Shown in pieces: positions 20,167-62,380 of a stretch of 64,000 nucleotides of DNA (the first letter of the stretch is position 1; each line of letters opens with the position of its first letter). This DNA comes from Bacteroidales bacterium (lineage in GTDB: Bacteria; Bacteroidota; Bacteroidia; Bacteroidales; VadinHA17). Position numbers and translations under genes: made by a program. The notes below the pieces were generated by a model. It made no database searches, was not told where the DNA came from, and saw only the letters and a list, made by a program, of their open reading frames with translations. The DNA lies in the NCBI GenBank assembly GCA_029932855.1, contig JAOZPG010000006.1, forward strand, positions 1 through 64,000, in the 5' to 3' direction.

Positions 20167-20736
20167 ATGACCGGCCTTAGATTATTGATATCTCTATCTT
20201 TGATTTCCGGAAGTTTTTTAGCTTCTGCCCAGTTAGATGCTTCATTCCGGGCTGATACAAACGACCTGCAATCATTTACTATTCATTTTAGCAGTATTTA
20301 TCAGTTATCTGATACTGCTTCTTATGACTTTTTATGGGATTTTGGAGATAATGACAGTTCTGAGCTTCCCTTTGTTTCACATACTTATTCCAGTCCCGGC
20401 AGCTATCTGGTAACATTCAGGGTTTCCGACGGAATAAACTCTGTTTCCACTTCTATGCCTGTAGCTATTGCAAACCTGGTGGAAGTGCCAAATGTATTTA
20501 CTCCCAATGGTGATGACATTAATGATTTTTTGGTACTTAAAACAAATGGCAGTACATTATATTCCCTGGTTATTTTTAACAGGTCGGGAGTCCTGGTTTA
20601 TAAAAAAGATTCCTATTCATTTGCATGGGATGGAAAAACTCCTTCCGGTGCGGATGTTCACTCCGGGGTTTATTATTATGTTTTGAGTACTGATGGAAAA
20701 TTTGTCAAGTCAGGCTTTTTTCATCTGATCAGATGA
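20167..20736 (+). CDS. secreted PKD protein with gliding-motility C-terminal domain
   Basis: 189 residues: signal peptide (1-22, ending SASAQ-like ASAQ), one PKD domain at about 28-95 (YDFLWDFGDNDSS, HTYSSPGSY), then the CHU_C type domain from FTPNGDDINDF to the end at FHLIR. That C-terminal domain is the type B sorting signal for the type IX secretion system, so the protein should be exported across the outer membrane and anchored or released. It is very short for the class and may be an adhesin fragment or structural surface component. It follows the AI-2E transporter gene by 5 bases. Confidence 0.85.
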   Translation: MTGLRLLISLSLISGSFLASAQLDASFRADTNDLQSFTIHFSSIYQLSDTASYDFLWDFGDNDSSELPFVSHTYSSPGSYLVTFRVSDGINSVSTSMPVAIANLVEVPNVFTPNGDDINDFLVLKTNGSTLYSLVIFNRSGVLVYKKDSYSFAWDGKTPSGADVHSGVYYYVLSTDGKFVKSGFFHLIR

Positions 20737-20833: not shown

Positions 20834-22852
20834 ATGAGGAACTACTTTTTAAAATTTCTTCTGTTTCTTTTTGTAACTATACCTGCACTGGCGCAGTCCC
20901 AGGCATATGATGAATACCTGGATCCTGCCGGATTGAATAAAGCCCTGAGCAGCCTGAACAAAAAATACCCGAAGAACACAAAACTGATCAGTCTTGCCAG
21001 GAGTGCTGGTGGACAAGATCTGCAAATGATTGAAATAGGACATGAAACAGGAACTGTAAAAAAATCAAAACCGGCGGTGCTGGTGGTTGCAAACATGGAA
21101 GGCATTGTTCCTGTTTCCAGCATGGCGGCAATTTACCTTGCCGATTATTTGCTTGAGAACAGCAGCGCATATGATAACCTTAGCTGGTATATATTGCCCT
21201 GTGGTAATCCTGATGCATATTCACATTATTTTGAATTTCCGCTAAAGATGGATCCCCGGAACAGTAAGGCACATAATGATGATATGGATAATCTTACAGA
21301 TGAAGACGGCTTTGAAGATCTTAACAAGGATGGCTTTATTACCCAGATGAGGGTTAAAGATCCTATGGGTACATGGGTACCTGTAAAAGGAGAGCCCCGG
21401 TTATTAAGGAAGGCAGATGCATCTAAAGGAGAAAAGGGAATTTACAAGCTTTATAGCGAAGGCCTGGATAATGATGGTGACGGCAAGTATAATGAAGACG
21501 GCAAAGGAGGTGTGAATGTTGGTATTAATTTCCCCCATCTGTTCAAGCCCTTCCAGAAAACCAGTGGTCTGTGGCCGGGTTGTACAGATGAGTCTTTTCA
21601 GCTTATGAAGTTTGTATTTGAGCATCCTGAGATTGCTATGACCATGGATTATGGTGCCGTGAATTTCTGTATTCAGCCGCCAAAAGGAGGGAGAAAAGGA
21701 AGTGTCGATATGGACAAGATTAAGATTCCTAAAGGCATGGCGGAGGACTTTGGAGCTGATCCCAATAAAACTTACAGCATGAAAGAAATAATTGAGCTGG
21801 TACAGCCTCTTGTTCCGCAGGGAATGACAGTTACTGAAAGCATGGTTGCCAGCTTCCTGGGTCTTGGAGCAGTTGTCAATCCCCTTGATAAAGACCTTAA
21901 GTTTTATAAAGATCTTTCGGAAAAGTATAAAGAGTATCTTAAGGACAAGGGACTTAAGGCCGAACGGCTTGCCCCTGAAAAAGCCAAGGATGCTTCCTTT
22001 GAGTTATGGTCGTACTATCAGCTGGGAATACCCAGTTTTGCTATGGATTTCTGGACCTTGCCCAAGCTGAAGGAAGAAAGTAAAGAAAAAAGTGAAATTA
22101 CAGTTGACAAGCTGAAGGAAATGTCGTCTGAAGAGTTTGTTGCACTGGGTAAAGAGAAGATAGCAGTCTTTCTCAAAGAATCCGGTGCTCCCGAACAGTT
22201 CACAGCTGATGTTGTGATAAAGATGGTTGAAGGAGGGAAAATGACTCCCGCGAAAATGGCAGAGATGATGAAGGATATGCCGAAGAAGGAAGATGATAAA
22301 GGTGGTGATTCAAAAACAAAGGCACTGATTGCATACAGTGACGAACATATGCAGGGAAAGGGATTTGTGGACTGGACTGCATATAAACATCCTGTGCTTG
22401 GAGATGTAGAGATAGGCGGGGTTGTACCTTATGTTGATAATACCCCCCCTGCCAGCTTGATGGATTCCCTGTTTGCTTTGCAGGTGCCATGGACTGTGGA
22501 ACTCAGTAAGAAACTGGCAAGACTTAAAATCCTTGATCATAAGCTTGAATATAAAGGGGGAGGTGTTTATGAGCTGACACTCTGGATAGAGAATATTTCC
22601 GATCTTCCTTTTCCAACAGCTATGGGTGAAAGGAATGAGCAACCTGCGCCTGCCATTGTTGAAATTGAAGGCAGCCAGATCAGTTTATTGTCGGGTAAAA
22701 GCAGAACCCCGGTAAATAGTCTGGGAGCTCATAAAATAAAAGAAATTAGCTGGCTTATTGAATCTGAGAAAGCAACGGACTTAACACTTAAGCTAAGTTC
22801 TGTGTTTGCCTGGGGCGACCAGGAACAAATAAAGATAGGAGGTGCAAAATGA
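20834..22852 (+). CDS. M14-family peptidase homologue lacking the zinc site
   Basis: 672 residues with a signal peptide (1-20, ending ALAQ). It aligns along its length with the next gene, a carboxypeptidase-type M14 protein: both have MRxKDPxG and a calcium-loop-like GxDNDGDG (211-217 here) followed by the same core. The zinc ligands are missing, however: where the neighbour has HGNE this protein has EGIV (89-92), the Asn-Arg substrate pair is replaced by VGINF, and the third ligand histidine region reads MDYGAVNF (271-278). The catalytic glutamate position reads AMDFW (403-407). There is also an insertion of about 90 charged residues (about 411-500). It is probably an inactive partner or binding protein. 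It overlaps the next gene by 4 bases (ATGA). Confidence 0.8.
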   Translation: MRNYFLKFLLFLFVTIPALAQSQAYDEYLDPAGLNKALSSLNKKYPKNTKLISLARSAGGQDLQMIEIGHETGTVKKSKPAVLVVANMEGIVPVSSMAAIYLADYLLENSSAYDNLSWYILPCGNPDAYSHYFEFPLKMDPRNSKAHNDDMDNLTDEDGFEDLNKDGFITQMRVKDPMGTWVPVKGEPRLLRKADASKGEKGIYKLYSEGLDNDGDGKYNEDGKGGVNVGINFPHLFKPFQKTSGLWPGCTDESFQLMKFVFEHPEIAMTMDYGAVNFCIQPPKGGRKGSVDMDKIKIPKGMAEDFGADPNKTYSMKEIIELVQPLVPQGMTVTESMVASFLGLGAVVNPLDKDLKFYKDLSEKYKEYLKDKGLKAERLAPEKAKDASFELWSYYQLGIPSFAMDFWTLPKLKEESKEKSEITVDKLKEMSSEEFVALGKEKIAVFLKESGAPEQFTADVVIKMVEGGKMTPAKMAEMMKDMPKKEDDKGGDSKTKALIAYSDEHMQGKGFVDWTAYKHPVLGDVEIGGVVPYVDNTPPASLMDSLFALQVPWTVELSKKLARLKILDHKLEYKGGGVYELTLWIENISDLPFPTAMGERNEQPAPAIVEIEGSQISLLSGKSRTPVNSLGAHKIKEISWLIESEKATDLTLKLSSVFAWGDQEQIKIGGAK

Positions 22853-24603
22853 AGAAGATAAAAAATATATTAAGCCTGCTGTTACCGGCAGTGCTAACCG
22901 TAGTTACACTTAATGCACAAACTCCCAAAATTGCAGTTCCCTTAAGATTTGATCATTATTATAGTTATGAGCAGGTGGTTGAGGCCTTAAAAGTATTGCA
23001 TAAGGCTTACCCTGATCTGACAAAACTGGATGTAGTAGGTAAAAGTGAGGAGAACAGGGAGATATATGCACTTACCATAAATAATCCAAAGACAGGTAAA
23101 GAACTTGATAAGCCTGGTGTATATGTGGATGGAAATATACATGGAAACGAAATACAGGCTGGGGAAGTCGGACTTTACCTGGCCAATGAGTTACTGACTA
23201 AATACGGTAAGAATAAGAAGATAAGCAGGCTTGTTGATAACAATGCTTTTTATCTTATACCGGTTGTTAATGTGGATGGCAGATACCATTTCTTTACAGA
23301 TGCAAATACACCCAGCACAAACAGGGGACTGAGAAGGCCCAAGGATGATGACAGGGATGGTTTATTTGATGAAGACTTTCCGGATGATCTGGACGGTGAC
23401 GGCAGCATAACGCGGATGAGGATAAAGGATCCCTTTGGGAGCTATAAAACCGATCCGGAAGATTCGCGCCTGATGATACGTGTAAAACCCGGGGAAAAGG
23501 GTGAGTGGACCGTACTTGGATATGAAGGGATTGACAATGATGGTGATGGCAGGATAAATGAAGACTCGGAGGGATATGTTGATCCAAACCGTAACTGGGG
23601 TTATAACTGGGCGCCACCATATGTACAGCAGGGTGCAGGCTTTTATCCTTTCTCAGGAGTGGGATTAAGTGCAGTAAAGAACTATATCATGGAAAGGCCC
23701 AATATTATTATGGTATTTGCTTTCCATAATAATGGAGGCATGTTTTTAAGAGGACCAAGCACAAAGGCCCAGGGGGAATTTTCCAGTGGAGATATTAATG
23801 TATATGATTACCTGGGGAAGAATGCAGAGAAGATAGTTCCCGGCTACAGGTATCTGGTAAGCTGGAAAGATCTTTATTCAACATATGGTGACTTTGGCGA
23901 CTTTATGGACAATGTTGTAGGTGCCTATACCTTTGTGGGTGAGCTCTTTGTGTCGGCCAGTGAATCATATGCGGAACCCGGCAAAGAGAAGAAAAACGAA
24001 GGGGAAAGCTTTTTTAGTAGTGGAGGTACTGAAAGAGCCAGGGAAAAGCTTAAGTTTAATGATCATGTAGCTATGGGTGAGCTTTATACTCCATGGAAAG
24101 CATATAAGCATCCTGTATATGGGGATATTGAGATCGGCGGATGGGTAAAGATGAGTTCAAGGCTGCCGCATCCATTTATGCTTCAGGACCTGGTTCACAG
24201 GAATGCAGCAGCTGTGATCTTTGCAGCAGAACAAACACCCGATGTGAAAATGGAGGTTTTTGAAACGAAGGAAATAGCTAAAAACCTTTACAGGGTGAGG
24301 CTCAGGCTTTCAAATAGCAAAGCTATGCCTTCCATTACATATCATTCTGTTAAGGATAAGGTGTTTCCCATGGATATTATCGAACTGTCCGGAAAAGGCA
24401 TTAAAGTGGTTTCGGGCGGTAAACTTACAGATGTTTATAATGACAAGGTGAATTATAAGAAATATAAGCCTGAAGTGCAATATTGCCAGGTGCCCGGATT
24501 TGGGAAAGTGGAGTACCAGTTTCTTATAACGGGTAAAGGGGAGCTTGAAATCTTATATAAATCGCAAAAAGCAGGAACACTAATTGAAACAATAAAACTT
24601 TAA
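22849..24603 (+). CDS. secreted M14-family zinc carboxypeptidase
   Basis: 584 residues with a signal peptide (1-24, ending LNAQ). The zinc site is intact: HxxE as HGNE (H98, E101), the Asn-Arg pair in DPNRNW (246-250), third ligand H293 in FAFHNNGG, and a candidate catalytic glutamate E365 in TFVGELF. Between them lie two calcium-loop-like repeats (LDGDGS at about 181-186 and IDNDGDGR at about 228-235). It cleaves C-terminal or side-chain peptide bonds; the substrate is unknown. It starts inside the stop codon of the homologous but zinc-less gene upstream, so the two are translationally coupled and likely act together. Confidence 0.9.
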   Translation: MKKIKNILSLLLPAVLTVVTLNAQTPKIAVPLRFDHYYSYEQVVEALKVLHKAYPDLTKLDVVGKSEENREIYALTINNPKTGKELDKPGVYVDGNIHGNEIQAGEVGLYLANELLTKYGKNKKISRLVDNNAFYLIPVVNVDGRYHFFTDANTPSTNRGLRRPKDDDRDGLFDEDFPDDLDGDGSITRMRIKDPFGSYKTDPEDSRLMIRVKPGEKGEWTVLGYEGIDNDGDGRINEDSEGYVDPNRNWGYNWAPPYVQQGAGFYPFSGVGLSAVKNYIMERPNIIMVFAFHNNGGMFLRGPSTKAQGEFSSGDINVYDYLGKNAEKIVPGYRYLVSWKDLYSTYGDFGDFMDNVVGAYTFVGELFVSASESYAEPGKEKKNEGESFFSSGGTERAREKLKFNDHVAMGELYTPWKAYKHPVYGDIEIGGWVKMSSRLPHPFMLQDLVHRNAAAVIFAAEQTPDVKMEVFETKEIAKNLYRVRLRLSNSKAMPSITYHSVKDKVFPMDIIELSGKGIKVVSGGKLTDVYNDKVNYKKYKPEVQYCQVPGFGKVEYQFLITGKGELEILYKSQKAGTLIETIKL

Positions 24604-24609
24604 TAAAAC

Positions 24610-24637
24610 AAGGGCCGGTTTTTCAACCGGCCCTTTT
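24610..24637. terminator. bidirectional terminator between M14 pair and purS
   Basis: A perfect 11-bp stem AAGGGCCGGTT/AACCGGCCCTT with loop TTTC, flanked by A-rich and T-rich runs. It lies between convergent genes and can serve both strands. Confidence 0.85.
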
Positions 24638-50258: not shown

Positions 50259-50632
50259 TAGGTTATGATATAGTGATTAGACAATTATACAAATTCTAAG
50301 CTATTAGAAAGAGCCCCAAAAGTAATAATTTTTTGAATATATCTAAAAGAAAATGCTAAGTTGGGAAAATCAGCTTTCCTGTCGGGGAAAGATTATAAGG
50401 CCTGACTTAATAGCAGGGAATAGCATAGATTTTGATACAGCCGTCTTTCCTGTAATGATGAATATCATGTTAATGCTAATAATGAAAGAGAGTATTTATA
50501 CCATATTATATATAGGATAAATTACTTATCAATATTGCAGAAAAAAATTAATAGTTGGTGTATAGATTTTTAAAAAAAAATAATACCTTTGCAACCCAAT
50601 TTGGGATTTTTATATTATTAAATATTGTCTAT
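50259..50632. other. 374-bp divergent region between EF-G2 and str operon
   Basis: This should hold the promoters for both directions. The only recognisable element is the -7 box for rpsL at 50584-50591. I see no RNA gene and no clear operator. The reading frame extends upstream of rpsL but not with conserved protein sequence. Confidence 0.55.
50584..50591 (+). promoter_or_regulatory. putative -7 box of the str operon
   Basis: TACCTTTG matches TAnnTTTG and lies 41 bases before the rpsL ATG. It lies inside the upstream extension of the rpsL reading frame, so translation from that extension is unlikely. A clear TTTG -33 is not seen. Confidence 0.5.
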
Positions 50633-51007
50633 ATGCCTACAATACAGCAGTTAGTAAGAAAAGGACGCAAGAAAATTGTAGAAAAAAGCAAGGCTCCGGC
50701 TCTTGATTCATGCCCGCAAAGAAGAGGTGTTTGTGTTCGTGTTTATACAACAACACCAAAAAAACCTAACTCGGCAATGAGAAAAGTGGCAAGGGTGCGT
50801 CTTACAAACGGGAAAGAAGTTAATGCTTATATCCCCGGTGAGGGACATAATTTGCAGGAACACTCAATAGTGATGATTCGTGGTGGCAGGGTTAAAGATT
50901 TGCCTGGTGTAAGGTACCATCTTATAAGGGGTGCTCTCGACACTGAAGGTGTTGACGGAAGAACCCAGAGAAGGTCGAAATATGGTACTAAAAAGCCTAA
51001 GAAATAA
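50633..51007 (+). CDS. rpsL: 30S ribosomal protein S12
   Basis: 124 residues starting [12 protein letters not shown]. The frame is open 26 codons further upstream, but the family start is at this ATG. The decoding-centre lysines K43 (TPKKPNS) and K88 (GRVKDLPG) are both wild type, which are the usual streptomycin-sensitive residues. First gene of the str operon; rpsG follows after 30 bases. Confidence 0.97.
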
Positions 51008-51037
51008 TATTGATAAAATTCAAGAATATTTAAAGAT

Positions 51038-51514
51038 ATGAGAAAGACTACGCCCAAAATCAGGAGGCTGCTCCCTGACCCGAAATATAAAGATACACTG
51101 GTTACAAGGTTTGTTAACAACCTTATGATGGGAGGGAAGAAAAGTCAGTCATTGACAATTTTCTATGGTGCTATGGAAATAGTTGAAGAGAAAATGAAAA
51201 GTGAAGATAAGTCGGCCCTGGAGATTTGGAAAAAGGCTTTAGAGAATATTACACCTGCAGTGGAAGTAAAGAGCCGCCGTGTTGGTGGAGCTACTTTTCA
51301 GGTTCCTATGGAAGTAAGGCCGGACAGGAAGGTCTCTATAAGTATGAAGAACATGATTCTTTATTCAAGAAAAAGGGCCGGAAAAAGCATGAGTGAAAAG
51401 CTTGCTGCAGAAATTATGGCTGCCTATAAAGAAGAAGGTGGTGCATTTAAGAAAAAGGAGGAGACACACAGAATGGCAGAAGCTAATAAGGCTTTTGCAC
51501 ATTTCAGGTTTTAA
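51038..51514 (+). CDS. rpsG: 30S ribosomal protein S7
   Basis: 158 residues, family length, beginning [17 protein letters not shown]. The conserved [12 protein letters not shown] and [18 protein letters not shown] segments are present. It nucleates assembly of the 30S head and binds mRNA near the exit side. fusA follows after 3 bases. Confidence 0.97.
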
Positions 51515-51517
51515 TAA

Positions 51518-53626
51518 ATGAGCGGAAACTTAAAATATACCAGGAATATTGGGATCATGGCCCATATTGATGCCGGTAAGACAACGGTAACCGAAAGGAT
51601 ACTGTATTATACCGGTCGTACTCACCGTATTGGTGAGGTTCATGATGGTGCTGCCCAGATGGACTGGATGGTGCAGGAGCAGGAGAGAGGGATAACAATT
51701 ACTTCGGCCGCAACAACTACTTACTGGAAATACAATGATGAGGATTATAAAATAAATATTATAGATACCCCGGGTCACGTTGACTTCACTGTTGAAGTTG
51801 AAAGGTCACTCAGGGTACTTGACGGAACCGTTGCCTTGTTTTGTGCTGTCGGAGGTGTTGAGCCGCAGTCTGAAACTGTTTGGAGGCAGGCTAATAAATA
51901 TGGCGTTCCCAGGATAGCCTTTATAAATAAGATGGACAGGACAGGTGCTGATTTCTTTTCAGTTGTTTCACAGATAAGGGAAAAGCTTGGTGCCAATCCC
52001 ATACCTGTTCAGATACCCATTGGCTCAGAAGAAAATTTCAAGGGCGTGATTGACCTTATGTACAATCAGGCCGTTGTTTGGAGAGAGGATGAGAATATGG
52101 GAACGGTTTATGATATGGTGGAGATACCCGAAGAACTTAAGGCTGAAGCTGCCGAGTGGAGAGAGAAACTTATTGAAGCTGTTGCAGAGACAGATGATTC
52201 ATTGATGGAGCGGTATTTTGAAGATCCCGATTCCATTACTCCGGAAGAGATGATAGAGGTTATACGTAAGTCAACCCTCGATATGTCTATTGTACCTGTA
52301 ATGTGTGGGTCTGCATTTAAAAACAAAGGTGTACAGAGGCTGCTTGATGCAACTGTTGCCTTCCTGCCGAGCCCGCTTGATGTTGGAGAGGTTAATGGAG
52401 TGAACCCTATGCATGGTGATGCTCCTGTCAGCAGGGAACCGGATGCAAATGAACCACTTGCCGCACTGGCATTTAAGATAGCTACCGATCCTTTTGTGGG
52501 AAGGTTGGTGTTTTTAAGAGTTTATTCAGGTGTACTTGAAGCGGGGGCTTCTATACTAAATGCAAGGACTGGTAAAAAAGGGCGTATAAACCGCCTCTAC
52601 CAGATGCATGCAAATAAGCAAAATCCCAAAGAAAGAATTGAAGCAGGAGATATATGTGCAGCTGTGGGATTAAAAGAGCTGAAAACAGGGGACACCATTT
52701 GTGATGCAAAGAACCCTATCTCGCTCGAGTCAATGGAATTTCCCGATCCTGTTATAGGTATTGCTATTGAGCCAAAATCACAACAGGATATAGATAAGCT
52801 TGGGCTGGCCCTCTCAAAACTTTCAGAGGAAGATCCTACATTCCAGGTTAAGACAGATGAGAATTCCGGTCAGACAATAATCAATGGAATGGGAGAGCTT
52901 CACCTTGACATACTTGTTGACAGGATAAAGAGAGAATTTAATGTTGAATGTAACCAGGGTACGCCACAGGTTGCATATAAAGAAGCTATTACCCGTACTA
53001 TTAAGCATCGCGAGGTGTTTAAGAAACAAACAGGTGGCAGGGGTAAGTTTGCTGATATAATTGTTGAGATAGGACCGGCCGATGATGGTATTACAGGTCT
53101 GCAGTTTATAGACCAGGTGAAAGGCGGGAATGTTCCAAGGGAATTTATACCTGCAGTGGAAAAAGGTTTCACACAGGCTATGAACAATGGTCCCCTTGCA
53201 GGCTATCCTGTTGACAACCTTAAGGTGGTTCTGCTTGACGGATCATATCATCCTGTTGACTCAGATGCTCTTTCCTTTGAACTAGCTGCCAGGTCAGCAT
53301 TCAGGGCGGCAACTCCAAAAGCAGTGCCGGTATTGCTTGAACCAATTATGGCAGCGGAGGTGGTTACACCTGAAGAATATATGGGTGACGTGATATCGGA
53401 CTTTAATAAGCGTCGTGGACAGGTTGAGGGGATGGAATCGAAAATGGGAGCCCGTGTTATTAAGGCCAAGGTGCCTCTGGCAGAGAAGTTTGGTTATGTT
53501 ACTGTTTTAAGAACACTTACTTCAGGAAGAGCAACCTCAACTATGGAGTTTTTAGAATATGATGAAGTGCCTTCAGAGATATCAAAGAGAATAGTTGAGA
53601 AGGCAAAAGGAGGCGTGGAAGTTTAA
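51518..53626 (+). CDS. fusA: elongation factor G
   Basis: 702 residues. Canonical G motifs: [24 protein letters not shown] with the catalytic histidine, NKMD. It drives ribosome translocation with GTP and helps ribosome recycling. It stands in contrast with the divergent paralogue at 48.1-50.3 kb, which has lost these catalytic residues. No tuf gene follows, as is usual in Bacteroidota; rpsJ comes 32 bases later. Confidence 0.97.
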
Positions 53627-53658
53627 TAAGATTTAAGTTTATTATAATATATAATAGA

Positions 53659-53964
53659 ATGAGCCAGAAGATCAGAATTAAATTAAAATCATACGATTAT
53701 AATCTCGTGGATAAATCTGCAGAGAAGATCGTAAAAACGGTAAAAACCACCGGTGCTGTGGTAAGCGGGCCTATACCTCTACCCACACACAAAAGGATAT
53801 TTACTGTGCTTCGTTCACCATTTGTTAATAAGAAGGCAAGAGAACAATTTATGGTTGCATCATACAAGAGATTGCTGGACATATATAGTTCCACACCAAA
53901 AACCATTGATGCCTTGATGAAGCTGGAACTGCCCAGTGGTGTGGAAGTGGAAATAAAAGTATAA
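53659..53964 (+). CDS. rpsJ: 30S ribosomal protein S10
   Basis: 101 residues; [21 protein letters not shown] is the usual start and [21 protein letters not shown] is conserved. It sits in the 30S head and also binds NusB in antitermination. The gap to rplC (128 bases) is the largest in the operon and contains a long hairpin. Confidence 0.97.
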
Positions 53965-53975
53965 TTACAGAAAAG

Positions 53976-54037
53976 CGCATGAAGATTATTAGTATTAATT
54001 ACTTACTAAAATAAGAATGATAATAATTTTCATAGCG
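53976..54037 (+). promoter_or_regulatory. candidate RNA leader hairpin between rpsJ and rplC
   Basis: The left arm CGCATGAAGATTATTA (53976-53991) pairs with TAATAATTTTCAT (54021-54033) and then GCG (54035-54037) after a bulged A. This makes a stem of 16 pairs with one G-T. The 29-base loop can form a smaller helix (CTTA/TAAG). It is the only long structured spacer of the S10 operon, so it is a candidate ribosomal-protein leader; which protein binds it is unknown. Confidence 0.45.
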
Positions 54038-54092
54038 GGTTACAGCAGACCATTAAAGACAGATATTATTAATTGATGAAATAGATATAGAA

Positions 54093-54710
54093 ATGCAAGG
54101 ATTAATAGGTAAAAAGGTCGGGATGACTTCCGTTTATAACGAAGAAGGGAAAAATATTCCCTGTACTGTTATAGAAGCAGGTCCTTGTGCCGTTACCCAG
54201 ATAAAGACAGTTGATCATGATGGCTACGATGCTGTTCAGCTGGGATTTGAGGAAAAAAAGGAAAAGCATACTACCAGAGCAATGGGGGGTCATTTCAAAA
54301 AAGCCGGTATTACACCAAGGAAAAAACTGGCTGAATTTACCGGTTTTGGTGATTCAGTGAAGCTTGGGGATGTATTAACAGTTGATCTGTTTAATGATGA
54401 TACATGGCTTGATGTAAGGGGGGTATCCAAAGGGAAAGGATTCCAGGGAGTTGTAAAACGTTATAATTTCCATGGTGTAGGTGATGCAACACATGGACAG
54501 CATAACCGGCTCAGGGCTCCGGGATCACTGGGTGCTTCATCATATCCTTCAAGGGTTTTTAAAGGAATGCGTATGGCTGGCCGCACCGGAGGAAAGCAGG
54601 TTATGGCTATCAGCCTTCGTGTTATAAAGCTTATTCCGGAGGAAAATTTATTATTAGTTAAAGGATCAGTTCCGGGTCCTAATGGTTCATACTTAATAAT
54701 TACCAAGTAA
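54093..54710 (+). CDS. rplC: 50S ribosomal protein L3
   Basis: 205 residues, starting [19 protein letters not shown]. The conserved central region [15 protein letters not shown] and [20 protein letters not shown] are present. One of the first proteins in 50S assembly, near the peptidyl-transferase centre. Its stop overlaps the rplD start by 1 base. Confidence 0.97.
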
Positions 54711-55339
54711 TGAAGTTAGCAGTATTAAATATAGAGGGAAATGACACCGGTAAAAAGGCCGAACTGAACAAGGAGGTCTTTGGTATAGAGCCAAATGATC
54801 ATGCTATTTACCTGGATGTTAAACAGTATATGGCCAATAATCGTCAGGGTACACACAAGGCAAAGGAAAGAGGCGAAGTAGTGGCCAGTACACGGAAGAT
54901 AAAGAAGCAAAAAGGTACAGGTACGGCAAGGGCAGGTGCTATTTCAAATCCATTGTTCAGAGGTGGCGGAAGAACATTCGGCCCAAGGCCCAGGGATTAT
55001 AACAACAAGCTTAATAAGAAATTGAAAAAACTTGCCAGGAAATCGGCTCTTACATATAAAGCCCTTGATAAAAGCATTATTGTTCTTGAAGACTTTCAGT
55101 TGAATGCTCCTAAAACAAGTGATTTTGAGAAGATTAGCCTCAATTTAAAAGTTAATGATAAAAAGTCACTCTTTGTTTTTAATGAAGCGAATAAAAACAT
55201 ATATTTGTCTTCCCGAAATTTAAAGAAGGTTAAGGTTATAACAGCCTCAGATATAAGTACATATGATATTATGAATGCTTCGACACTTGTGCTTTCAGAA
55301 AGTTCAATCGAGGTTATTAACAAAGTTTTAGGGAACTAA
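54710..55339 (+). CDS. rplD: 50S ribosomal protein L4
   Basis: 209 residues. The flexible exit-tunnel loop is seen as [26 protein letters not shown], followed by the family motif [14 protein letters not shown]. In E. coli, L4 is the autoregulator of the S10 operon by binding its leader; the hairpin upstream of rplC is one possible site here, but that is inference. Confidence 0.97.
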
Positions 55340-55354
55340 GAAAATTATTGAAGC

Positions 55355-55645
55355 ATGGAAATTTTGCTTAAGCCAATAGTAACAGAAAAAATGACAGCTC
55401 AGGGAGAAGACCTGAACCGTTATGGATTTAGAGTGGCTAAAACAGCCAATAAAATACAGATAAAAAAAGCTGTGGAGGAGATGTATGATGTGACTGTAGA
55501 ATCAGTTAACACTATGCGTTATGGGGGTAAAAGAAAGATGAGGCAGACAAAGAGCGGAGTATCGCTTGGTAAGACCAATGCTTATAAAAAAGCTATAATT
55601 ACCCTGGCCGAAGGAGATACGATTGATTTCTACAGCAATATTTAA
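55355..55645 (+). CDS. rplW: 50S ribosomal protein L23
   Basis: 96 residues, beginning MEILLKPIVTEKMT with the conserved RYGFRVAKTANKIQIKKAVEE. It lies at the exit of the ribosomal tunnel and docks trigger factor and SRP. rplB follows after 7 bases. Confidence 0.97.
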   Translation: MEILLKPIVTEKMTAQGEDLNRYGFRVAKTANKIQIKKAVEEMYDVTVESVNTMRYGGKRKMRQTKSGVSLGKTNAYKKAIITLAEGDTIDFYSNI

Positions 55646-55652
55646 TTGAGTC

Positions 55653-56477
55653 ATGGCAGTAAAAAAATTCAAACCGGTAACTCCGGGTCAGAGACAAAAA
55701 GTAGCAGGAACTTTTGAAGAGATAACAAAATCGACTCCTGAGAAATCTTTGCTTCGTCCGATTAAGAGGACAGGAGGAAGGAACAAGCAGGGTAAGATGA
55801 CAATGAGGTATATGGGTGGCGGACACAAAAAGAGATACCGTGTTATTGATTTTAAGAGAAATAAGGAAGGGATGCCTGCTAAGGTTAAGAGTATTGAGTA
55901 TGATCCAAACCGTACGGCCAGAATTGCACTGGTTGTTTACGAGGATGGAGAAAAAAGATATATCATTGCTCCCAATGGATTAAAAGTTGGTCAGACAATT
56001 AATTCAGGTAAGGGTGTCAGTCCTGAAATAGGAAACAGCCTGTACCTGTCAGATATTCCGTTGGGAACAATTGTACATAATATAGAGTTGCAGCCCGGAA
56101 AAGGAGGTGCCATGGCACGCAGTGCGGGTTCATATGCCCAGCTTACCAGCAGGGAAAAGAAATATGCCATACTTAAATTGCCTTCAGGTGAATCAAGGAT
56201 GGTTCTTGTAACATGTCGTGCAACTATAGGAAGTACTTCTAATTCAGATCACGGACTGGAGCGTTCAGGAAAGGCCGGGAGATCGAGATGGCAGGGAAGG
56301 CGTCCAAGGGTCAGGGGTGTTGTAATGAACCCTGTTGATCACCCGATGGGTGGTGGTGAGGGAAGAGCTTCCGGAGGTCATCCGAGATCGAGGAATGGAA
56401 TACCCGCCAAAGGTTTTAAAACCCGTGCAAAGAAGAAAACTTCCAATAAATATATTGTTGAGAAAAGAAAGAAATAA
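55653..56477 (+). CDS. rplB: 50S ribosomal protein L2
   Basis: 274 residues, full length. Conserved segments are [13 protein letters not shown] at the start, [19 protein letters not shown] and the C-terminal [21 protein letters not shown], containing the histidine important for peptidyl-transferase-centre assembly. rpsS follows after 22 bases. Confidence 0.97.
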
Positions 56478-56499
56478 ATATTGAAAATTATTTGACAAG

Positions 56500-56766
56500 A
56501 TGAGCAGATCACTTAAAAAAGGTCCTTTTATAGATTTTAAACTCGAGAAGAAAGTTCTTGGGATGAATGATTCGGGCAAGAAAAGCGTGATCAAAACCTG
56601 GTCGAGAAGGTCAATGATCTCTCCAGATTTTGTTGGTCATACAATAGCAGTGCATAACGGTAACAAGTTTATACCGGTGTATATTACAGAGAATATGGTT
56701 GGACATAAATTAGGTGAGTTCGCTCCTACACGTATCTTTAGGGGTCATGGAGGAAGAGACAGGTAG
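56500..56766 (+). CDS. rpsS: 30S ribosomal protein S19
   Basis: 88 residues: [12 protein letters not shown] at the start, then [27 protein letters not shown], the family signature. It forms the 30S head with S13. rplV follows after 23 bases. Confidence 0.97.
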
Positions 56767-56789
56767 TTTGATAGTTTGCTGAAAATTTA

Positions 56790-57242
56790 ATGAATATGGG
56801 TGCAAAAAAACGAAATAGGGCAAATGAAATGAAGGAGGCAAAGAAGAGCCGCTATTATGCTGTTCTTAAAGATTGTCCTACTTCACCGCGAAAAATGAGA
56901 CTTGTAGTGGATATTATTCGCGGACAGGAAGTAAATAAGGCTCTTGATATATTGAAATACAGTACAAAAGAAGCTTCGGGAAGGATTGAAAAGCTTCTTC
57001 TGTCGGCTATTGCCAACTGGCAGGAGAAAAATGAGGGAGTAAGGATAGAGGATTCTAATCTCTTTGTAAAGGAAGTCTTTGTTGACCAGGGAAGAACATT
57101 GAAAAGACTGCGTCCTGCACCACAGGGGAGGGCGCACAGGATAAGAAAAAGATCTAATCATGTTACACTTGTGCTGGATAGTATAAATAAAACAGAAGCC
57201 ATACCTGCCGGTGGACAGGATGAATCTTCAATAACAAAATAG
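56790..57242 (+). CDS. rplV: 50S ribosomal protein L22
   Basis: 150 residues, with the usual globular core and a beta-hairpin segment [23 protein letters not shown] lining the exit tunnel. The N-terminus has an extra basic stretch ([16 protein letters not shown]) and the C-terminus has an acidic tail ([16 protein letters not shown]), as in other Bacteroidota. An ATG at 56796 is an alternative start. rpsC follows after 5 bases. Confidence 0.95.
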
Positions 57243-57247
57243 AATAA

Positions 57248-57943
57248 ATGGGACAGAAAGTAAATCCGATATCGAATCGTTTAGGGATCATCAGGGGATG
57301 GGATTCAAACTGGTATGGCGGAAAAAACTATGCCGATAAACTGGTTGAAGATGAAAAGATCAGGAAGTACCTGAATGCCAGACTTGCAAAAGCCAGTGTT
57401 TCAAAGATAGTTATTGAAAGGACACTGAAACTTATAACGGTTACTGTTAACACTGCAAGACCCGGGATAATTATTGGAAAAGGCGGACAGGAAGTGGATA
57501 AGTTGAAGGAAGAACTGAAGAAGCTTACAAAGAAAGAAGTACAAATAAATATTTATGAAGTAAGAAGACCTGAGCTGGATGCAACCATTGTAGCAAATAA
57601 TATTGCACGTCAGATAGAGGGTAAGATATCTTACAGAAGGGCAATAAAAATGACCATAGCCTCTACAATGAGAATGGGAGCCCAGGGGATTAAGGTACTT
57701 ATTGCAGGTCGTCTTGGTGGAGCGGAGATGGCACGTTCTGAAATGTATAAAGAGGGAAGAATTCCACTTCATACACTTCGTGCAGATATTGATTTTGCCA
57801 AAGCAGAAGCCCTCACAAAGGTTGGCCTGATTGGTATTAAGGTATGGATATGTAATGGTGAAGTTTACGGTAAAAGGGATCTTTCGCCTAACATAGGTGC
57901 AAAACAAGCCAAGGCTAAAGGTTTTGGCCGTAGAAACAGATAA
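57248..57943 (+). CDS. rpsC: 30S ribosomal protein S3
   Basis: 231 residues. N-terminal [24 protein letters not shown] and the KH domain with [21 protein letters not shown] are present. It lies at the mRNA entry site and has helicase-like action. The 48-base spacer to rplP holds a small CCGCC/GGCGG hairpin (57954-57966). Confidence 0.97.
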
Positions 57944-57991
57944 TGATTTATGACCGCCACGGGCGGGGAAATATATAAATAACATAGAAAA

Positions 57992-58417
57992 ATGTTACAA
58001 CCGAAAAAGACTAAATACAGGAGGCGCCAGAAAGGCAGGATGAAAGGTAATGCCCAGAGGGGAAATCAACTGGCGTTTGGCAGCTTTGGTATAAAATCGA
58101 TGGAGCAGGCCTGGATCACAGGAAGGCAAATTGAAGCTGCACGTCAGGCGGTTACGAGGTATATGAAAAGGGAAGGACAGATATGGATACGTATTTTCCC
58201 GGATAAGCCTATAACAAAGAAGCCAGCTGAGGTAAGAATGGGAAAAGGTAAAGGAGCACCCGAAGGATTTGTTGCCCCTATTACTCCGGGAAGAATAATC
58301 ATTGAAGCTGAGGGAGTACCTTATAAGATAGCAAAAGAGGCTCTTCGCCTGGCATCACAAAAACTGCCTGTTATTACCAAGTTTGTAGTAAGGCATGATT
58401 ATGTTGAAGAAAATTAA
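57992..58417 (+). CDS. rplP: 50S ribosomal protein L16
   Basis: 141 residues with [25 protein letters not shown] at the start and the conserved [21 protein letters not shown] loop near the A site. It helps position tRNA acceptor ends. rpmC follows after 15 bases. Confidence 0.97.
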
Positions 58418-58432
58418 AGAAATTTGAGCTTT

Positions 58433-58639
58433 ATGAAGAGTAATGAATTAAAAGAGCTTACGCTTAAGGAACTGGAGGAAAGGATTGATAACGAAAGGAA
58501 TTTCCTTACAAAGATAAAATTAAATCATGCTATATCTCCTCTGGATAACCCGCTTAAAATAAGAGGTATAAGAAGAAATATTGCAAAGATGCAAACTGAA
58601 TTAAGAAACAGGCAATTAACCGGGAAAAAGGAAAACTAG
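58433..58639 (+). CDS. rpmC: 50S ribosomal protein L29
   Basis: 68 residues beginning [19 protein letters not shown], the family start. The frame extends three codons upstream to a TTG (58424), which I do not use. Two helices near the tunnel exit form the protein. rpsQ follows after 2 bases. Confidence 0.95.
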
Positions 58640-58641
58640 CA

Positions 58642-58899
58642 ATGGAAAACAGGAATTTACGTAAAGAGCGTATCGGCATTGTGGTAAGTGACAAAATGAA
58701 CAAGTCAGTAGTAGTATTGGTGAAACGTAAAGTAAAACACCCTATTTATGGCAAGTTCGTTAACAAGAGCGTTAAGTTTACTGCTCACGATGAAGAGAAT
58801 ACCTGCAATTTAGGAGATACCGTAAAAATTATGGAAACCAGGCCTATAAGTAAGCAAAAGAGCTGGAGATTAGTTGAAATACTTGAAAGAGCTAAGTAA
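58642..58899 (+). CDS. rpsQ: 30S ribosomal protein S17
   Basis: 85 residues: [22 protein letters not shown] at the start and the conserved [21 protein letters not shown] in the middle, with [21 protein letters not shown] at the end. OB-fold protein of the 30S body. rplN follows after 2 bases. Confidence 0.97.
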
Positions 58900-58901
58900 T
58901 T

Positions 58902-59267
58902 ATGATACAACAAGAAAGCAGATTAGCCGTAGCCGATAACAGCGGCGCCAAAGAAGTTCTCTGTATCAGGGTTTTGGGCGGTACTAAAAAGAGATATGCA
59001 TCTGTCGGAGATAAGATAGTTGTTACTGTTAAAAGCGCAATGCCGGGCGGAGAAGTAAAAAAAGGAATGGTAACCCAGGCAGTTGTGGTTAGAACCAAAA
59101 AGGAAATCAGAAGAAATGATGGTTCATATATACGTTTTGATGATAATGCTGTTGTTTTACTGAATACAGCTAATGAGATCAGGGGTACCCGTATTTTCGG
59201 TCCTGTACCCAGGGAATTACGTGAAAGTTATATGAAGATCATCTCTTTGGCACCAGAGGTGCTTTAA
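58902..59267 (+). CDS. rplN: 50S ribosomal protein L14
   Basis: 121 residues; starts [27 protein letters not shown] and contains the conserved [16 protein letters not shown], then [14 protein letters not shown]. This is the binding site for the RsfS silencing factor encoded at 13.3 kb. rplX follows after 18 bases. Confidence 0.97.
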
Positions 59268-59285
59268 TTGAAAATATTGTTCGAA

Positions 59286-59615
59286 ATGAGCAGGATGAAG
59301 AAATTACATGTAAAAAAAGGTGACACGGTACACGTGATAAGTGGTGAATATAAAGGCCAGAAGGGACGTGTACTTGAAGTGCTGATTAAAAAGAACAGGG
59401 CAATCGTCGAGGGAGTGAATATGGTTTCCAAGCATACTAAACCTAATGCACAAACCCCACAGGGCGGAATTATCAAAAAAGAAGCTCCTGTTCATTTGTC
59501 AAATTTATTACTGGTTGATCCTTCAACAGGTGAGCCAACAAGAATCGGAAGAAAAGCAGACGACAATGGTAAGCTTGTCAGGTATGCAAAAAAATCAGGA
59601 GAGGAGATTAAGTAA
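59286..59615 (+). CDS. rplX: 50S ribosomal protein L24
   Basis: 109 residues from ATG 59286 ([18 protein letters not shown]); another ATG lies 9 bases later. The frame also runs six codons upstream to a TTG, which does not fit the family. The KOW motif is [14 protein letters not shown], followed by [12 protein letters not shown]. One of the first 50S assembly proteins. It overlaps the rplE start by 1 base. Confidence 0.93.
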
Positions 59616-60172
59616 TGGAATACGTACCAAGCCTTAAAAAGAAATACAAGGAAGAAATAATTTCTTCCTTAAAGGAGAAGTTTAACTATTCTTCAGTAAT
59701 GCAGGTTCCCAGGTTAAAGAAGATTGTTATTAACCAGGGTATTGGCCAGGCAACAGCAGATAAGAAGCTTATTGATATAGGCCTGAAAGAGATGGAGGCT
59801 ATAAGCGGTCAAAAAGCTGTTGAAAGATACTCGACCAAGGATATTTCAAACTTCAAGCTGAGAAAGAAAACCCCTATTGGAGTAAAAGTTACTCTTAGAA
59901 GGGATAAGATGTATGAGTTCCTGGAGAGGCTTATTGTTGTTTCTCTGCCACGAATACGTGATTTCAAAGGTGTAAACAATAAGCTCGACGGAAGGGGTAA
60001 TTATACTCTTGGAATAACTGAACAGATTATTTTCCCTGAAATTGATATTGATAAGATCAATAAGATAATGGGACTTGAAATAACTTTTGTTACATCGGCA
60101 GCTACCGATGAAGAAGGTTATGCATTAATGAAAGAATTCGGAATACCGTTTAAAAACACAAAAAGTAATTAA
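59615..60172 (+). CDS. rplE: 50S ribosomal protein L5
   Basis: 185 residues, with the conserved [16 protein letters not shown], the [18 protein letters not shown] region and [17 protein letters not shown]. Binds 5S rRNA in the central protuberance. rpsN follows after 1 base. Confidence 0.97.
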
Positions 60173-60173
60173 T

Positions 60174-60443
60174 ATGGCTAAGGAATCAATAAAGGCTCGT
60201 GAAGTTAAGCGTGCCAGACTTGTTGAGAAATACGCTGCAAAAAGAGCTCAGTTGAAAGCTGACGGTGATTATATTGGTTTAAGCAGGCTCCCAAGGAACT
60301 CGAGCCCGGTTCGCTTGCATAATCGTTGCAAGATAACAGGCAGGCCTAAAGGCTATATGCGCCAGTTTGGGATCAGCAGGATCACTTTTCGTGAAATGGC
60401 TTCAGCCGGTTTGATACCCGGTATAAAAAAAGCGAGCTGGTAG
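60174..60443 (+). CDS. rpsN: 30S ribosomal protein S14, zinc-free form
   Basis: 89 residues: [20 protein letters not shown] at the start and the conserved [31 protein letters not shown] at the end. It lacks the CxxC pairs of the short zinc form, so it is the long C-minus type. The following 69-base gap to rpsH contains a hairpin. Confidence 0.97.
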
Positions 60444-60444
60444 G

Positions 60445-60481
60445 CGTTTTGTACCTGTGAATCGCGCTTACAGGCACAACG
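60445..60481 (+). promoter_or_regulatory. hairpin in the rpsN-rpsH spacer
   Basis: Inner stem CCTGTGA (60454-60460) pairs with TTACAGG (60468-60474) around the loop ATCGCGC; an outer stem CGTT/AACG (60445-60448/60478-60481) closes it with a few unpaired bases between. It lies just before rpsH (S8), the known repressor of the spc operon in E. coli, so it could be a regulatory site; this is only inference. Confidence 0.4.
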
Positions 60482-60512
60482 GAGTTAATTAAATTAGAAA
60501 AAAAAGAAGAAA

Positions 60513-60908
60513 ATGACAGATACCATAGCAGATTATCTTACAAGAGTAAGGAATGCCATTAAGGCAGGTCATAAAGTGGTAGAGATACCTGCTTCAAACC
60601 TGAAGAAGGATATTACCAAGATCCTTCATGAGAAAGGATATATATTAAATTATAAGTTTATTGACGATGGGCCACAGGGGACAATTAAGATTGCCCTTAA
60701 GTACCATCCCAAGACCAAGCTTTCAGCAATTAAGTCTTTGCAGAGGGCAAGTCGTCCGGGTTTAAGGAAATATGCCGATGTGGATGAAATTCCAAGGGTA
60801 CTGAACGGACTGGGAATAGCTATTCTTTCCACTTCCAGCGGAGTTATTACCGACAAGGAAGCCAGGAGTATGAATGTGGGTGGCGAGGTATTGTGTTACA
60901 TATATTAA
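60513..60908 (+). CDS. rpsH: 30S ribosomal protein S8
   Basis: 131 residues, starting [20 protein letters not shown], with the conserved C-terminal [26 protein letters not shown]. Primary 16S rRNA binder in the platform and, in E. coli, translational repressor of the spc operon. It is followed after 16 bases by rplF, which has a consensus ribosome-binding site. Confidence 0.97.
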
Positions 60909-60910
60909 TT

Positions 60911-60916
60911 AGGAGG
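60911..60916 (+). promoter_or_regulatory. Shine-Dalgarno sequence AGGAGG of rplF
   Basis: AGGAGG lies 8 bases before the rplF ATG, the ideal position. I see no such consensus before the other genes of this operon, where starts are preceded by AT-rich sequence. This is unusual because Bacteroidota rarely use Shine-Dalgarno pairing. Confidence 0.75.
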
Positions 60917-60924
60917 ATATTTTT

Positions 60925-61479
60925 ATGTCACGAATAGGGAATTTACCAATAGAACTGCCTGAGGGTGTTAGCGTAGAAGTTTCTGATGCTAACCTGGTAA
61001 AGGTAAAGGGACCAAAAGGAGAGCTGGAGCAGCAGGTCAGTCCTGAGCTTACAATTAAGCTGGAAGCTGATGAGCTGAAGATAGAAAGGCCATCTGATGA
61101 GAAAGAACATAAAGCCATGCATGGTTTGTACCGTTCACTTATCAATAATATGGTAACAGGTGTTTCAAAAGAATATGAGATTAAGCTGGAACTTGTAGGT
61201 GTTGGTTACCGTGCTGAAGCAAAGGGACAGATCCTTGAGCTAAGCCTTGGTTATTCACACGACTTCATGATAGAGTTGCCGGTTGAAATAAAGCTTAGAG
61301 CTGAAACCCAGAAAAGATCTAATCCTATAATTACCCTTAGCAGTATTGATAAGCAGCTGCTTGGCCATATTGCTTCAAAAATAAGAGCTTTAAGGAAACC
61401 TGAACCATATAAGGGAAAAGGTGTTAAGTATGTGGGTGAGCATATCCGCAGGAAAGCAGGTAAAACTGCAAGTGTTTAA
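60925..61479 (+). CDS. rplF: 50S ribosomal protein L6
   Basis: 184 residues. MSRIGNLPIELPEGVSVEV at the start and the C-terminal signature RKPEPYKGKGVKYVGEHIRRKAGK are clear. Located near the factor-binding site of the 50S subunit. It is the only gene in the operon with a strong Shine-Dalgarno sequence. Confidence 0.97.
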   Translation: MSRIGNLPIELPEGVSVEVSDANLVKVKGPKGELEQQVSPELTIKLEADELKIERPSDEKEHKAMHGLYRSLINNMVTGVSKEYEIKLELVGVGYRAEAKGQILELSLGYSHDFMIELPVEIKLRAETQKRSNPIITLSSIDKQLLGHIASKIRALRKPEPYKGKGVKYVGEHIRRKAGKTASV

Positions 61480-61498
61480 TAGTTAATTGTGAATGATC

Positions 61499-61858
61499 AT
61501 GGCTTTGACAAAAACAAATAGAAGAGATAGGATTAGGAAAAGGATACGTAAAAACCTTTCCGGTACTGCAGAGATCCCAAGAGTCTCAGTTTTCAGAAGT
61601 AATAAGCAGATATATGCCCAGCTTGTGGATGATGCTGCCGGAAAAACCCTGGTTACAGTTTCTTCTTTGAATAAAAATATAGCTGAGAAAAAAGATATTT
61701 CAAAAATTGAACAATCTAAGCTGGTTGGTAAATTGCTTGCCGAAGAAACAAAGAAGCTGGGCATTAGCTCAGTGGTTTTTGACAGGGGTGGTTATTTGTA
61801 CCATGGCAGGATTAAGGAGTTAGCAGATGCTGCCCGTGAAGGTGGCTTAAAATTCTAA
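61499..61858 (+). CDS. rplR: 50S ribosomal protein L18
   Basis: 119 residues from the second of two nearby ATGs (MALTKTNRRDRIRKRIRKNLSG); the other start is at 61493. The conserved RVSVFRSNKQIYAQLVDD and the C-terminal VFDRGGYLYHGRIKELADAAREGGL are present. Binds 5S rRNA with L5. rpsE follows after 6 bases. Confidence 0.96.
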   Translation: MALTKTNRRDRIRKRIRKNLSGTAEIPRVSVFRSNKQIYAQLVDDAAGKTLVTVSSLNKNIAEKKDISKIEQSKLVGKLLAEETKKLGISSVVFDRGGYLYHGRIKELADAAREGGLKF

Positions 61859-61864
61859 ATTATT

Positions 61865-62380
61865 ATGACAGAAGGCATAAGAAAAGTAAAAACCAGTGAC
61901 CTTGAACTAAAAGACAGGCTGGTAAGTATTCAAAGAGTAACAAAAGTTACAAAAGGCGGACGTACATTCAGTTTTTCAGCAATAGTTGTTGTTGGTAATG
62001 AAGACGGGATTGTTGGACACGGACTTGGAAAAGCCAAAGAAGTAACAACTGCTATTTCAAAAGGCATTGAGGATGCAAAGAAAAACCTTATTAAGGTTCC
62101 TGTATATAAAGGTACCATCCCACACGAACAGGCTGCTAAGTTTGGTGGAGCCAGGGTCTTTCTTAAGCCTGCCTCGGAAGGTACAGGTGTTAAGGCAGGA
62201 GGAGCCATGAGGGCTGTACTGGAAAGTGTTGGTATTAATAATGTACTTGCAAAGTCAAAAGGCTCGTCAAATCCTCACAATCTTGTAAAGGCCACATTTG
62301 CAGCTTTACTGGAACTGCGTGATGCAAGAGGGGTAGCTGCTGCCCGCCAGGTTTCGGTTGATAAAGTTTTTAACGGTTAG
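61865..62380 (+). CDS. rpsE: 30S ribosomal protein S5
   Basis: 171 residues with the double-stranded-RNA-binding motif [22 protein letters not shown] and [15 protein letters not shown], then [20 protein letters not shown]. Involved in decoding accuracy and mRNA entry. rpmD follows after 11 bases. Confidence 0.97.

Follow-up and report, generated by a model that had tools for sequence, protein, structure and literature searches.

Two overlapping M14 genes

We identified a pair of overlapping genes, here called A and B, in the window, the whole 64,000-nucleotide stretch of Bacteroidales DNA that was analyzed. Gene A (20834..22852, + strand) encodes a protein of 672 amino acids which is predicted to be an M14-fold pseudopeptidase, based on its PF00246 match, its dead site, residue tallies across its family and an AlphaFold2 model. 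Gene B (22849..24603, + strand) encodes an M14 metallocarboxypeptidase of 584 amino acids with an intact active site, assigned from its PF00246 match, its site residues and its own AlphaFold2 model. An earlier sequence-only reading had described two overlapping secreted M14 homologs at this locus. Both open reading frames are present with the overlap, and the PF00246 matches of 58.9 bits (A) and 131.1 bits (B) lie above the Pfam cut-off of 21.6 bits.

The stop codon of A and the start codon of B share the sequence ATGA, so that two intact reading frames on the + strand overlap by four bases. An AGGAGG sequence (22837-22842) lies inside A, six bases ahead of the ATG of B. The segment formed by this sequence and the overlap (22837..22852, + strand) likely starts B by coupled translation. 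A perfect 11-bp G+C-rich stem-loop directly 3' of B (24610..24635, strand not assigned) is likely a terminator bounding the two-gene unit. Given the AGGAGG, the ATGA overlap and the stem-loop, A and B look like one short transcription unit, presumably with coupled translation. A sequencing or frame artifact is ruled out, as both frames are open and recur in more than 50 other loci.

A small secreted PKD-domain protein with a type IX secretion system (T9SS) type B sorting domain is encoded just upstream of A (20167-20736). A search for deposited relatives of the locus returned only one (L033), in which a homolog of the PKD protein is found near the pair; the homolog is absent from more distant loci. 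Elsewhere in the window, a run of ORFs (50555-62380) resembles in size and order what we take to be a str-S10-spc ribosomal protein cluster.

Both proteins begin with a hydrophobic leader that, read by eye, is a probable Sec signal peptide (MRNYFLKFLLFLFVTIPALAQ in A). The M14 domain of B begins approximately 20 residues past the signal peptide, and B lacks an N-terminal prodomain. Alignment of the two proteins gave 30% over 277 residues (E 1e-30) and a further match between their C-terminal regions (E 3e-12). The earlier description of the two proteins as aligning along their length therefore holds for both ends, but not for residues ~284-490 of A, which contain inserts (at ~284-350 and ~410-495) that have no counterpart in B.

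Active site residues

Residue equivalents are given in bovine carboxypeptidase A (CPA) numbering. B of the window has a complete site consisting of H98 (69) and E101 (72) within the HGNE zinc motif (residues 98-101; 23140..23151, + strand), N247-R248 (144-145), H293 (196) and E365 (270). As originally noted for this protein, N247 and R248 are part of an NRNW sequence (N247-R248-N249-W250). At the place of the HxxE zinc motif, A has EGIV (residues 89-92; 21098..21109, + strand), and the aligned residues are E89, V92, G230-I231-N232-F233, G274 and D405. The third histidine is missing, in agreement with the sequence-only reading.

The site of B is found throughout its family. H98 and E101 occur in 60/60 proteins, H293 in 59/59 readable proteins, and E365, R159, N247, R248 and Y343 in 59-60 of 60; the 60th protein is cut by a contig end, and all B proteins reaching a column keep its residue. 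Judging from the alignment, we take R159 and Y343 to be the probable equivalents of Arg127 and Tyr248 of CPA. The residue at CPA position 255 sets the specificity of carboxypeptidases A and B. This column contains Leu, Ile, Thr or Gly in 56/60 family B proteins, which suggests that B prefers uncharged rather than basic C-terminal residues in its substrates.

The zinc ligands and catalytic glutamate (the His69, Glu72, His196 and Glu270 equivalents) are kept in 0/57 proteins of family A. Judging from the alignment, no member of the family can be expected to bind a catalytic zinc in the canonical way. Replacement at these columns is nonrandom: the 69 column holds Glu, Asp or Lys in 55/57 proteins (Glu or Asp in 44, Lys or Arg in 12), the 72 column His in 28/57, the 196 column Gly or Ser in 55/57, and the 270 column Pro, Asp or Asn in 55/57. 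The substrate-binding arginine had been reported missing from A, which is correct for the window copy (I231) but not for the family, where the 145 column is Arg in 24/57 proteins and Lys in 17/57. Several columns of the former pocket are more conserved than the mean A column. Additionally, Asp-rich loops that look like putative calcium loops in both proteins (D150, D152, D162, D212, D214, D216 and E221 of A) do not vary among A proteins and hardly vary among B proteins. As these loops are invariant while the zinc site is lost, A appears to have lost its zinc site selectively, with the rest kept.

The combination of an acidic residue at the His69 column and His at the Glu72 column is a partly swapped pattern, as might be expected if A had retained enzymatic activity through altered chemistry or another kind of metal site. 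However, the 69 column is basic in a portion of the family, the third ligand is nearly always Gly or Ser, the catalytic glutamate is lost in every example, and the window's own copy reads E/V/G at the three ligand positions. No A-specific invariant His or Cys was found in the alignment of family A. The sole invariant histidine, H519, is in the C-terminal part and is common to B, which leaves no sign of a different conserved metal site built from His or Cys. Alternative zinc ligands in A, which the sequence-only reading had named as grounds for refuting it, thus did not emerge as a conserved site in the alignment, and we consider retained enzymatic activity of this kind very unlikely.

Other variants of the M14 site were also observed. 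A separate subfamily of ~657 amino acids (L116, L118 and L119) has HSGE and the catalytic glutamate intact, with Asp at the position of the third zinc histidine (SMDT), and is possibly an Asp-ligand variant. No A- or B-like partner was found within ~3 kb on each side of these genes. A singleton subfamily (L121:3674-5485 and L126:4516-6471) has Asp where the first zinc histidine would be (DSDE) and keeps Glu72, His196 and Glu270.

Predicted structures and export

Structure prediction of both single chains, which had been proposed as a check, yielded an M14 fold in each case. The AlphaFold2 model of A (pLDDT 88, pTM 0.82) matches carboxypeptidase A4 (2pcu) with a VIA Z of 29.9 and 2.5 Å over 275 residues, and that of B (pLDDT 87, pTM 0.88) matches carboxypeptidase T with a VIA Z of 37.8 and 2.7 Å over 302 residues. 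A is therefore predicted to keep the M14 fold, and PF00246 matches 42/42 of the A proteins scanned. At a threshold of E 0.001, NCBIfam models matched none of the 42 A proteins and none of the 46 B proteins scanned; neither the TIGR04183 nor the TIGR04131 sorting domain is therefore present, which speaks against A and B as T9SS cargo. The proteins are also not lipoproteins by a crude lipobox pattern, which occurs in 2/57 A and 0/60 B proteins.

Distribution of the pair

Profile searches were conducted within one phylum, covering 395 Bacteroidota genomes and wider class samples; the samples overlap, as some genomes were drawn more than once. Within the order, A occurs in 8 of 149 genomes, the window's genome included. 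In seven of these B directly follows A. In the eighth (G022) the pair is more divergent, and the genome also carries another tandem whose two copies are both intact. The sequence-only reading had asked whether other Bacteroidota keep the two genes as a unit, and the A-B unit is indeed found in about 23 family-level codes from several classes of the phylum. All 52 of the 52 adjacent pairs that could be read fully are on the same strand with A first, and the gap between the genes has a median of 7 bases and is at most 20 bases in 42 of the 52. There is no conserved third gene in the unit, and shared neighbors reflect local synteny within lineages only. No fused A-B gene was found among the loci read; the long frames at two loci (L096 and L129) arise because the start was extended mechanically into A, and are not fusions.

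In the phylum sample, A is present in 36/37 genomes with a B-clade gene, and in 33 of the 37 the pair is tandem and intact. Of the remaining B-holding genomes, one has an A that is tandem to B but split by a frameshift (G264), one an A cut by a contig end (G473), and one an A on a different contig from B (G340). In the 37th, which has no A (G283), B starts at a contig edge. No genome of the phylum sample has A alone, and neither gene was found alone in any adequately assembled genome among those sampled. The sequence-only reading would have been refuted had the first protein occurred alone in most relatives; A was never found alone in good context. In two further genomes (G693 and G779) A and B are on different contigs with room for the partner there, so that in three genomes in all the genes are unlinked and both are kept. 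That both genes persist in trans argues for a functional tie between them, beyond mere linkage.

The unlinked examples are also consistent with A being an independent secreted peptide- or glycan-binding protein, one that shares a pathway of capture and trimming with B and never binds it. The former pocket of A, with its conserved columns and the Gly or Ser that replaces His196, appears remodeled rather than drifting, which would fit such a protein. However, capture should serve other peptidases as well, yet A is not found alone in good context, and B is the only partner of A even though the window's genome encodes several other M14 proteins. We regard an independent binding protein as unlikely.

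Several unusual arrangements were observed. In L042 (2257-6154) a tandem M14 pair has all zinc and catalytic residues in both members, and it may resemble the state before A lost its site, with a placement that is unsure from long branches. A-B-B triplets occur in L112 (3234-8364), where A is split by a frameshift, and in L113 (1-3983), where the first B has Leu at the third zinc histidine, a second loss of the site.

Phylogeny and selection

The A proteins form one clade (support 100/99), as do the B proteins (100/98). Support for the A clade is 88 in a larger quick tree, and its exact sister is unsure because of long branches. Repeated independent inactivation is unsupported, since A is a single clade. 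The A and B subtrees mirror each other, with a correlation of A and B distances of 0.91 compared with at most 0.33 in 2000 permutations. Species history common to both trees inflates the value of 0.91; swapping partners within a genome is the only test not affected by it. Two genomes (G240 and G136) each have two pairs from distant clades, in which the A and B partners occupy matching places in the trees, and swapping partners within the genome lowers the correlation from 0.91 to 0.75 and 0.85, respectively.

Between near relatives dN/dS is 0.04-0.08 for A and 0.01-0.03 for B. A is under strong purifying selection, and it evolves faster than B with a mean distance ratio of 1.6. Given the loss of the site in the whole of a single clade, the purifying selection and the predicted fold, A is an ancient, maintained pseudopeptidase whose zinc and catalytic site was lost in a single ancient lineage. 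The dN/dS values and the phylogeny rule out a recent pseudogene. If A were a duplicate in decay that happened to survive next to B, this would account for the loss of the active site, the only feature that speaks for decay. Such a reading is refuted by the low dN/dS, the single ancient origin, the retention of A when unlinked and the well-formed predicted fold, and we assign it next to no probability.

Comparison with known systems

Active and dead peptidase pairs are already known in the M16 and M23 families. In Helicobacter pylori the M23 homologs Csd1 and Csd2 form a proven heterodimer in which one protein has incomplete ligands and no metal (PMC5053510). Like A and B, these are two homologous bacterial cell-envelope metallopeptidases of which one has complete zinc ligands. 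However, they have the M23/LytM fold, act on peptidoglycan and dimerize through helical domains, and the A-B heterodimer is only inferred. The M16B heterodimers include MPP alpha/beta, TTHA1264/TTHA1265, SPH2681/SPH2682 and AlbE/AlbF (PMC12731061). Their subunits are paired, in bacteria through neighboring genes, and activity requires both the homolog with the zinc motif and the one without it; the bacterial pairs are proven cases, like Csd1-Csd2. An active and a dead homolog that are encoded and inherited together, the trait common to the M23 and M16B examples, is present in A-B. M16 enzymes differ in that both halves build a clam-shell chamber, whereas M14 proteins have one open funnel and the well-studied members work without a homologous partner.

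Within M14, the eukaryotic pseudopeptidases covered in the consulted part of a review of vertebrate and yeast proteins are carboxypeptidase D (CPD) domain III, AEBP1/ACLP, CPXM1, CPXM2 and Ecm14; that part describes no bacterial M14 pseudopeptidase (PMC11266112). As there described, they resemble A in having the M14 fold and lost catalytic residues, but all five have His69 and most have Glu72; in family A no zinc ligand survives. CPD, with its dead third domain, is the nearest case within M14, but it is a single chain, and none of those described is a two-gene active/dead unit (PMC11266112).

B itself shares its fold and full catalytic set with carboxypeptidase T of Thermoactinomyces and carboxypeptidases A and B. 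It exceeds them by more than 200 residues, with a C-terminal beta region and inserts that contain DxDxDG loops, and it has a constant dead partner. The sequence-only reading knew of no described pair like this, and in the open-access journal papers searched we likewise found no bacterial M14 active/dead pair, nor an experiment on any member of either family.

A proposed two-subunit carboxypeptidase

The idea of a functional pair of active and dead copies survived the tests that were run (a conserved unit, no A alone and no alternative zinc site). That A and B are kept together in evolution suggests, but does not prove, that the two act as parts of a single machine. A joint role is favored by the purifying selection, by the agreement of the trees and by the presence of both genes even when unlinked. 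Co-inheritance and adjacency are also compatible with a pathway common to A and B in which the two proteins never touch, and the faster evolution of A and the lack of a fused A-B gene among the loci read speak against a complex. The best reading is a heteromer, and we consider it reasonably probable that A and B constitute a two-subunit exported metallocarboxypeptidase in which B cuts and A docks, stabilizes or gates, as in Csd1-Csd2 or the bacterial M16B pairs. The sequence-only reading had suggested a scaffold, a regulator or a substrate-binding partner for the dead copy. Both proteins would be exported, each folding as an M14 core with a C-terminal beta domain. Coupled translation would provide matched amounts, and A would associate with B, probably 1:1. 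B would trim C-terminal residues, probably uncharged or hydrophobic, from peptides. A would have no chemistry of its own; it would stabilize or activate B and may offer a second, remodeled cleft that docks or gates the substrate.

Alternatively, A may serve solely to inhibit B or to help it fold, capping B much as a zymogen prodomain would, but in trans, and keeping it silent in the periplasm until B reaches its site of action. An early partner would be expected to be made first, as A is in every pair read, and to be always present with B, which lacks an N-terminal prodomain. However, no sequence feature indicates inhibition, and the results do not separate an inhibitor from an activator or scaffold; we consider this role rather improbable.

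M14 carboxypeptidases are textbook stand-alone enzymes. We would give about even chances to the broader proposal that the heteromer is an obligate, phylum-wide two-subunit carboxypeptidase in which an M14 pseudopeptidase binds and controls its active sister, and that it is without precedent, both as a pair within M14 and as a described family of bacterial M14 pseudopeptidases. The distribution of A also carries a warning for annotation, since every scanned A protein passes as 'Zinc carboxypeptidase' in Pfam despite its lost site. A dead M14 partner that is conserved to the depth of a phylum would provide dozens of natural pairs in which to probe what a pseudopeptidase adds to an enzyme.
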